Assembly (NCBI GenBank): GCA_903929475.1
Contig: CAIYUV010000274.1
Location: 1 to 45,315, forward strand
Length of the DNA stretch: 45,315 bases
Reading direction: 5' to 3'
DNA from: an uncultured Spartobacteria bacterium
GTDB taxonomy: Bacteria > Verrucomicrobiota > Verrucomicrobiia > Chthoniobacterales > Chthoniobacteraceae
The position numbers were made by a program, and so were the translations under genes. Positions within the stretch are counted from its first letter, which is position 1; each line of letters opens with the position of its first letter. A model generated the notes under the pieces. The model ran no database searches. It was given only the letters and a program-made list of their open reading frames with translations, and had not been told where the DNA came from. This document shows, one piece after another, positions 16,557-18,679 of this stretch.

Positions 16557-16653
16557 CCTCGCGAAAAGACGCAGAGGCGCAAAGCTATTGCGATGAGGAG
16601 ACGGCGCGGTTTTCCAGTTCACCCTCTTTGCGCCTTGGCACCTTTGCGCGAGG
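16557..16653. repeat. 28-nt imperfect inverted repeat (dispersed-repeat-like)
   Basis: The left arm (16557-16584) and the reverse complement of the right arm (16626-16653) match over 28 nt with a few mismatches; 41 nt separate them. Both arms consist of the motif gcgcaaag/ctttgcgcc with gcgaaaag-like flanks. From memory, related 'ctttgcgcct...ctttgcg' sequences are scattered in many genomes of this broad group. It fills the gap between the ThuA gene start and the ArsR-type gene stop; no gene is seen in 16469-16671. Confidence 0.65.
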
Positions 16654-16671: not shown

Positions 16672-17013
16672 TCACCCCCGCAGCACGCAGCAGCCGAAAT
16701 CCATCTCGATGCCGCGCTCGGTCTTTGCCACCGGCACGTCGGGTGCGAGTGCGTAGAGCGTCCGCCTTTTGTCGCTCGGGTCCGGCATCGTCGTCAAAAA
16801 GCGGGCGTCGCGCAGCGTGGTGAGATGTTTGAGCACCGCGTCCGGCCTGCGCCCTGCGCCTGCGGAAAGTTGCGACGCCGACAACGGCGGCCCGCCCGCC
16901 AGACGCAACAACAGTCGCCGCCTCACCGGGTCGCAAATCATCGAGAAAATCACATCGGGTTTCCATGGCGACACAGGCGTCGCTGGCGCGGGAGATTGGG
17001 GCGTCGTGCTCAT
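16672..17013 (-). CDS. ArsR-type winged-helix transcriptional regulator
   Basis: 113 residues from the ATG at 17013 (a start at 17034 adds seven). The winged helix-turn-helix is plain: DPVRRRLLLRLAGG, SASQLSAGAGRRPDAVLKHLTTLRDARFL, then the wing PDPSDKRRTLYAL. The C terminus ends FGCCVLRG; two adjacent cysteines could bind a metal or sense redox state, but no standard ArsR metal box is present. It would act in the cytoplasm as a dimeric repressor. Its upstream side is occupied by the 42-bp repeat array, whose phase can be followed to within about 15 bp of the start codon, so the array is the upstream region of this gene. Confidence 0.8.
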   Translation of the reverse strand: MSTTPQSPAPATPVSPWKPDVIFSMICDPVRRRLLLRLAGGPPLSASQLSAGAGRRPDAVLKHLTTLRDARFLTTMPDPSDKRRTLYALAPDVPVAKTERGIEMDFGCCVLRG

Positions 17014-17026
17014 GCGGCAAATTTTT

Positions 17027-17905
17027 AAGCGCAAAAATCCGCCTCGCGCAAGCCGTCACCACGCGGCAGAAATCGCGCACCTGATTTGCATGATCATCCG
17101 CGCCGCAGCACTCCGCATAAGTGTGGACGAAGTGTCCCGGGAAATTCCCGCGCTTTGCAAAACCTCGCGCGACGTGAACCGGTGCCTCGCCGCACAAAAC
17201 GCACACGCAAACTGCGTGAGCATCCGCATCACGACACGCCGCGAAAAGGCAAACGCCGTGATCCATTTGCGCACCGCGCTCCGCAAAAGCGCATCCCGCG
17301 TGATCGCCTGCCCCGATACACCGGACGCACACCCAAACCCGATGAACCTCCTGCCCGCAGCCCGCTGCAAAATGGCAACCGTCATGAACGTCCGGCACCA
17401 TGCGCTTTGCAAAAACCCAACCCGTGTGAGCGATTGCCCCACAGCGGAAAACACGCACCCAAACCGCATGAAAATACAAGCCCGTGCACTCCGCAAAAAG
17501 GCGAACGACGTGATCATGCAAGCCCCTGCACTCCGCAAAACCTCACCCGATGATCCAATGCAAGCCCCTGCGCTCCGCAAAACCTCGCCCGACGATCCAA
17601 TGCAAGCCTCTGCACTCCGCAAAACCTCACCCGACGATCCAATGCAAGCCTGTGCACTCCGCAAAACTTCACCCGACATCCAATACAAGCCCCTGCGCTC
17701 CGCAAAACCCCACCCGACGATCCAATGCAAGCCTCTGCGCTCCGCAAAACCCCGCCCGACGATCCAATGCAAGCCCCTGCGCTCCGCAAAACCTCACCCG
17801 ACGATCCGAAGCAAGCCTCTGCACTCCGCAAAACCCTGCCCGATCATCGGATTCAAGCCCCAAAGTTCCGCAATCAGGCATCTCTACAGAGAAGACGCCC
17901 CCGCG
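17027..17905. repeat. Array of about 19-21 tandem 42-bp repeats, progressively diverged toward the ArsR gene
   Basis: The anchor ctccgcaaaa or a close variant recurs at 17111, 17153, 17237, 17279, 17363, 17405, 17489, 17531, 17573, 17615, 17657, 17698, 17740, 17782, 17824 and 17866, always at a multiple of 42 bp except for one 41-bp step (17657 to 17698). At 17195, 17321 and 17447 the phase holds but the anchor is eroded; a possible anchor at 17027 is also in phase. Units from about 17489 to 17860 are nearly identical, those on the ArsR side heavily diverged. All units are contiguous, without spacers. Both strands have long stop-free frames because 42 is divisible by three: on the minus strand each near-identical unit reads LRSAEACIGSSGEV-like, on the plus strand QAPALRKTSPDDPM-like. 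The 1-bp loss shifts either frame. I do not call a gene here. After 17905 (to 18110) nothing recognisable is seen. Confidence 0.9.
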
Positions 17906-18110: not shown

Positions 18111-18679
18111 TTACTTCGCGGCTGCGAGCAGCGCGTCGAGATCGAGTGCCTTCGTAAACATCGCCAATTTGCCATCCGGCGTGCGCGGCCATTCCGCAAT
18201 CGGGCGATCCCAATACAGTTCCACGCCATTGTCGTCCGGGTCGCGCAAATAAAGCGCCTCGCTCACGCCGTGATCCGCCGCGCCGTCGAGCGGGATGCCC
18301 GCCGCCTTCAGCCGCCGCAACGCATCGCCCAGTTCCGCCCGCGTCGGATACAGGATCGCCGCATGATACAACCCCGTCGTCCCCGGCCCCGGTGCCCGCC
18401 CGCCCGCGCTCTCCCAAGTATTCAGCCCGATGTGATGATGAGCCGAGCCAGTCGGCGACTGGCGAGACAGACTGGCCGTCAGGCCAGCCCGTGAGGGCGA
18501 AGTCGCCGTGAGGCGGCGGCTTCGTCATTTCCACCCGCCGAAAGAAACGCCGCCTCCCGCCCCATCCGCTGCGTCACTTCAAACCCCAGCACATCCCGGT
18601 AAAACCCAATCGCCCGCTCCAAATCCGCCACCTTCAAATGCACATGTCCGATGCACATGTGAGCAGGGTGTAACTTCAT
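18111..18679 (-). pseudogene. VOC (glyoxalase/dioxygenase-fold) protein gene broken by a small insertion
   Basis: The 5' part (18679 downward) encodes CIGHVHLKVADLERAIGFYRDVLGFEV and GREAAFLSAGG, then meets a stop at 18479. The rest resumes in another frame as HHHIGLNTWESAGG, GTTGLYHAAILYPTRAELGDALRRL and SEALYLRDPDDNGVELYWDRP. These are the two beta-alpha-beta-beta-beta modules of a catechol-2,3-dioxygenase/glyoxalase-like protein, with metal ligands expected at HVHLKV, HH and GVELYW. Removing about 90 bp near 18445-18534 restores one frame of roughly 158 codons, the normal family length. Start at ATG 18679. Function before disruption: possibly ring-cleavage or glyoxalase-type; not determinable. 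Confidence 0.82.
18445..18534. mobile_element. Cassette of four consecutive mini-hairpins inserted in the VOC gene
   Basis: Four palindromes follow each other: 18447-18453 with 18457-18463 (7-bp stem, loop ggc); 18472-18477 with 18482-18487 (6 bp, loop gtca); 18487-18490 with 18495-18498 (4 bp, loop gtga); 18504-18507 with 18512-18515 (4 bp, loop gtga). Three loops are gtga or gtca. The block interrupts a protein frame that is otherwise intact, so it arrived as an insertion. It is too short to encode anything and resembles REP/MITE-like non-autonomous repeats. The exact ends and any target duplication are not clear from one copy. Confidence 0.65.

Follow-up and report, generated by a model that had tools for sequence, protein, structure and literature searches.

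A phased array of 42-bp repeats upstream of an ArsR-type gene in an uncultured Spartobacteria bacterium, a candidate operator array

In the genome of an uncultured Spartobacteria bacterium we found a tandem array of 42-bp units that reaches the start codon of a gene for an ArsR-type winged-helix protein. Comparison with sister loci suggests that the array is probably a cis-acting row of predicted operators for the adjacent ArsR-type protein, arranged in phase along a single helix face. The array was studied in a stretch of 45,315 nucleotides, here called the window, which is contig C274 of a 4.5-Mb genome in 295 contigs (G000). The literature was searched for such phased arrays and nothing relevant was found.

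The first-pass annotation of the window had described about 19 phase-locked units of 42 bp with one 1-bp slip, fresh at the distal end and decayed towards the ArsR-type gene, and had proposed a tandem-repeat finder as a check. TRF reported an array at 17473-17861 with a period of 42, 9.3 copies and 85% matches. The phase could be traced further to about 17000, as lag autocorrelation of 17000-17480 gave z values of 3.7, 4.1 and 6.3 at lags of 42, 84 and 126, the last being the strongest within the decayed part. Following the register we counted 20 units between 17030 and 17866, and the description was thereby confirmed. The distal fresh part (17474-17866, minus strand) contains nine strong motif copies at 42-bp steps with the core GGTTTTGCGGAGYGCAGRGGCTTGCAT on the gene strand, where the fresh units read GGTTTTGCGGAGYGCAGRGGCTTGCATTGGATCRTCGGGTGA. 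The step from the copy at 17642 to that at 17683 is the only one of 41 bp, and the 1-bp slip was located at 17668-17683. The proximal diverged part (17014-17473, minus strand) comprises about 11 units with a higher-order period of 126 bp and the core at a 42-bp pitch. In this proximal part 14 of the 42 columns agreed in eight or more of the 11 units, against 0.83 expected from random rotation. The decayed units thus keep a core as well as the spacing, and the earlier idea that the spacing alone is kept did not stand. The motif scan found no match to the array motif anywhere else in the window, and a DNA search of 56 relatives gave no match outside the own genome. The units of the window array were not significantly palindromic (P 0.08). 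A CRISPR-like array was considered and rejected: the repeat is the whole unit, there are no spacers and the window has no Rfam match.

The adjacent ArsR-type gene (16672-17013, minus strand; gene calls were made with a simple codon model) encodes 113 amino acids ending in the signature MDFGCCVLRG. Its start is likely the ATG at 17013 and not the TTG at 17034, so that the array extends right up to the start codon and its placement directly upstream of the gene holds. The protein belongs to the ArsR/SmtB winged-helix family with scores of 39 bits for Pfam HTH_20 (cut-off 27; 8e-10) and 23.2 bits for HTH_5 (cut-off 22). It falls below the metalloregulator threshold of NCBIfam HTH_metalloreg (30.8 bits against a cut-off of 55), and the recognition-helix region of the family alignment (A1), where metal-site cysteines were sought, contains no conserved cysteine. 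Members of the subfamily share the C-terminal tail (L/M)D(F/Y)G...R. When genomes were scanned for close relatives of the protein, the sole match was a distant one in Dehalococcoidia, and a single-sequence structure prediction had too low a confidence (pLDDT 41) to be of use. Two further features were recorded nearby. Short boxes of the CGCAGAGGCGCAAAG type lie between the ThuA-like and the ArsR genes (16565-16650), and a glyoxalase-like frame (18111-18371 and 18479-18679) is broken by an imperfect palindrome of about 90 bp (18431-18528) with a predicted RNA fold of -54 kcal/mol.

Arrays are linked to this subfamily of ArsR-type genes in related bacteria. A profile of eleven homologues was searched against 213 genomes of the order and gave matches in 21 of them. 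At 13 of the 14 loci scoring above 95 bits an array or phased sites were present directly upstream of the gene, with a period of 42 or spacings of 43 and 64-65 bp; at the remaining locus only 288 bp precede the contig end. The array-bearing relatives belong to the own genus, to genus g6 and, with lower scores, to family f3. An array is likewise present at members of lower score whose C-terminus is similar (own C104, G009:C32, C217, C183, C80, G037:C19 from another family, G001:C100 and G009:C67). Canonical ArsR genes that lack the DFG-type tail (G009:C239, G009:C27 and G001:C62) had no array, and neither had a conserved group of orthologues from other genera. This distribution argues for operators read by the subfamily. 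In the window's genome both ArsR genes that pass the HTH_20 cut-off have arrays, and in 388 kb of relatives, a sample partly chosen for containing ArsR or glyoxalase matches, only one array with a period of 21n bp lay away from genes of these types. The neighbours of the loci are unrelated genes; at G001:C100 mraW follows immediately after the ArsR gene.

The unit sequences differ between loci, and their geometry recurs. Scanning eight old loci for recurrent sites gave 36 distances, namely 42 (19 times), 43 (6), 64 (5) and 65 bp (2), with 45, 48, 84 and 89 bp once each. The predominant spacings of 42-43, 64-65 and 84 bp lie near multiples of 10.5 bp and correspond to 4, 6 and 8 helical turns, which supports helical phasing, and the odd distances of 45, 48 and 89 bp coincide with flips in orientation. 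Recurrent sites at near-integral numbers of turns thus adjoin a regulator gene, in the window at a pitch of 42 bp, as expected of a helically phased operator array. At G009:C161, G001:C75 and G003:C42 one and the same array contains copies of a non-palindromic site facing either way. The sites of G009:C32 are near-perfect palindromes, GATAGCATCA-N6-TGATGCTATC, and a search of that genome allowing 3 mismatches gave no copy outside the array. Unit palindromicity reached z values of 5.4 and 5.1 at two loci, and the units of many arrays, some without an ArsR neighbour, were more palindromic than column-permuted controls. An earlier proposal of curvature through phased A tracts did not hold up. Tracts of at least four A/T number 18 in the 19.9 units of the window array, but in GC-rich sister arrays of the same 42-bp pitch A tracts are few or absent, and curvature of this type is therefore not a common feature.

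Sites are better conserved than spacers in one set of loci. The layout 42-64-64-42-42 is common to G001:C54, the orthologous G006:C113 and an orphan copy in G001:C11, with sites 83-92% and spacers 56-74% identical (Fisher P 6e-5 to 4e-8); for C54 and the orphan copy the values were 86% and 58% (P 4e-8). The boundary motif of this set is identical at 13-14 of 14 positions. The orphan copy (G001:C11:50304-50499; L261 around 1333-1612) has no ArsR gene and lies upstream of an SGNH-like gene. Across loci the sharing of array 8-mers tracks the identity of the proteins (Mantel r 0.64, with none of 5000 permutations as high), a co-variation to which common descent contributes, since close relatives are expected to share array sequence. 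Together with the helical spacing, the palindromic sites of G009:C32 and the sites in both orientations, these observations point to operators. Also in keeping with operators, substitutions show no mod-3 bias, and about 4750 differences between neighbouring units stand against roughly eight internal slips, although this scarcity of indels is partly a detection bias because discovery by periodicity favours indel-poor arrays. The footprint and palindrome evidence stems from sister loci; the window array has no detectable orthologue and its own sites can therefore not be footprinted.

The window array also belongs to a wider class. About 20 more arrays of 21/42 bp in the same genome are capped by CCAACAGAGAAGA, and its core recurs at the distal end of the window array in a boundary element, TCTACAGAGAAGAC (17884-17897, plus strand), whose 5' side faces the array. 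The genome contains 20 copies of the motif WACAGAGAAGANC, against none in the reversed control. Nearly all copies have an array of 21, 42, 63 or 84 bp on their 5' side (weak at L139 and L140); only at L125 does one lie on the 3' side. These intergenic arrays of 21/42/63 bp (e.g. L123-L142) have locus-specific units and the cap CCAACAGAGAAGANC, and subfamilies of them share sequence around the cap. The genes beside the ArsR-less arrays are of many kinds. Upstream of the ArsR gene, a shorter form of the motif, TCTCTGT/ACAGAGA, was present at 8 of 23 array loci of the relatives and the window's genome, compared with a background of 0.026 per 900 bp; its orientation varies, it lies inside the array at G001:C42, and it is absent from about half of the sampled arrays in the window's genome. 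The core motif of the window array, GCRCTCCGCAAAACC, is found at three more places in the genome (C56, C239 and C292) without an adjacent ArsR gene. A dispersed block similar to GGCGGCACAAGTGTGTCGCTGGAGG precedes the GCRCTCCGCAAAACC-bearing stretches at C239, C292 and C56 (L010, L008 and L012). The notion of an array unique to the ArsR locus was thus wrong. These ArsR-less places, the about 20 ArsR-less arrays and the lack of significant palindromicity in the window units speak against the operator reading. Of the roles proposed in the first-pass annotation, that of operator array withstood the refuting condition set there, since relatives do carry arrays with a 42-bp period next to the homologous ArsR-type gene, and the helical spacing supports the phasing; arrays of this type also occur away from ArsR genes, which that annotation had not foreseen.

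Could the arrays be neutral satellites, made by slippage, in which the phase persists only as substitutions outnumber indels? We consider this improbable. The contrast between a fresh and a decayed end, a different unit sequence at every locus and the many arrays without an adjacent regulator would fit such an origin. However, periods cluster at 21 and 42 in 13 of 20 arrays from a 710-kb sample (contig C10, which is all N, was left out and its match discarded), the arrays are concentrated upstream of one protein subfamily, and the sites are better conserved than the spacers. Neither the two orientations nor the spacings of 64-65 bp are simple products of a 42-bp duplication.

By analogy with TubR-tubC or ParB-sopC, the ArsR-type protein and its array might instead form a segregation or nucleoid complex at a centromere or chromosome-anchoring site. 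The F-plasmid centromere sopC (parS-F) consists of twelve tandem 43-bp repeats with inverted-repeat binding sites that are bound by SopB/ParB (PMC6238139), and stand-alone genes without a conserved neighbour would suit a structural site. Several paralogues per genome with different sites do not fit this explanation, and no ParA, TubZ, ParM or tubulin-like GTPase was recognised beside the loci by gene calls and Pfam in the part of the neighbours that was scanned; such a function seems quite unlikely to us. Still less probable is a transcribed array, in which the boundary element would start or process an RNA of repeat units and the ArsR gene would be a mere neighbour. In its favour, the element faces the array in a constant direction at about 20 arrays of the genome, but this direction is reversed in C54, C113 and C183, the window has no Rfam match and the association with the ArsR subfamily would go unexplained. 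A decaying coding repeat of 14 residues, the other earlier suggestion, is hardly credible despite a 462-codon open frame on the plus strand that spans the array, as substitutions are even across the three codon positions, without an excess at the third, in 37 of 38 arrays of this genome and relatives, several old arrays contain stops in all six frames and there is no Pfam match.

Under the operator reading, dimers of the ArsR-type protein are predicted to bind one site per unit. As the units are 42 bp or four helical turns apart, all dimers would lie on one face of the DNA and would be able to contact each other. They may thus form an extended, possibly wrapped nucleoprotein complex that covers the promoter and controls the own ArsR gene, and sometimes the genes near orphan copies. 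Tandem duplication would add new units at the distal end, while older units would retain only the core contacts and the spacing. We infer binding, autorepression, cooperative assembly, distal growth and a window array that works like its sister loci; autoregulation and wrapping are suggested by the architecture and by the known analogues sopC and TubR. It is possible, though doubtful, that the ArsR-type proteins form a diversifying set in which every member recognises its own helically phased array (21n bp), grown from a CCAACAGAGAAGA boundary common to all, while orphan arrays elsewhere act as distant sites for docking or regulation; this would be an undescribed genome-wide system of lock-and-key co-evolution. 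If true, these loci would offer a natural series of regulators and operators, diverged in sequence at near-identical geometry, in which the evolution of winged-helix specificity and the reason for the spacing of four and six turns could be read. Intergenic arrays of this class, many of which have a boundary motif in common, may shape transcription or chromosome architecture in this little-studied lineage.

In ArsR/SmtB metalloregulators a regulator gene is accompanied by an upstream operator. The window protein shares the winged-helix HTH_20 domain with them and scores below the metalloregulator cut-off, and canonical members in these genomes lack the array that the window gene has. MraZ is a regulator with repeated sites directly before mraW in the dcw cluster. 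In G001:C100 (L240) the module of ArsR gene and array holds the usual position of mraZ before mraW, whereas the protein family and the spacing are unrelated to those of MraZ. TubR binds direct repeats upstream of its own operon and represses it (PMC5016525). The small winged-helix protein with upstream repeats resembles this type III partition system (TubRZ-tubC), in which tubZ lies next to tubR; here the scanned neighbours are unrelated and no TubZ was recognised among them, the pitch is 42 bp and there are several copies per genome. Tandem repeats of 43 bp with inverted-repeat sites make sopC a further analogue. The window array lacks a ParB protein, a ParA partner and a plasmid context, its protein being of the winged-helix ArsR type with no ParA seen beside the loci, and it differs from sopC in that these bacteria carry many paralogous arrays with different sites.
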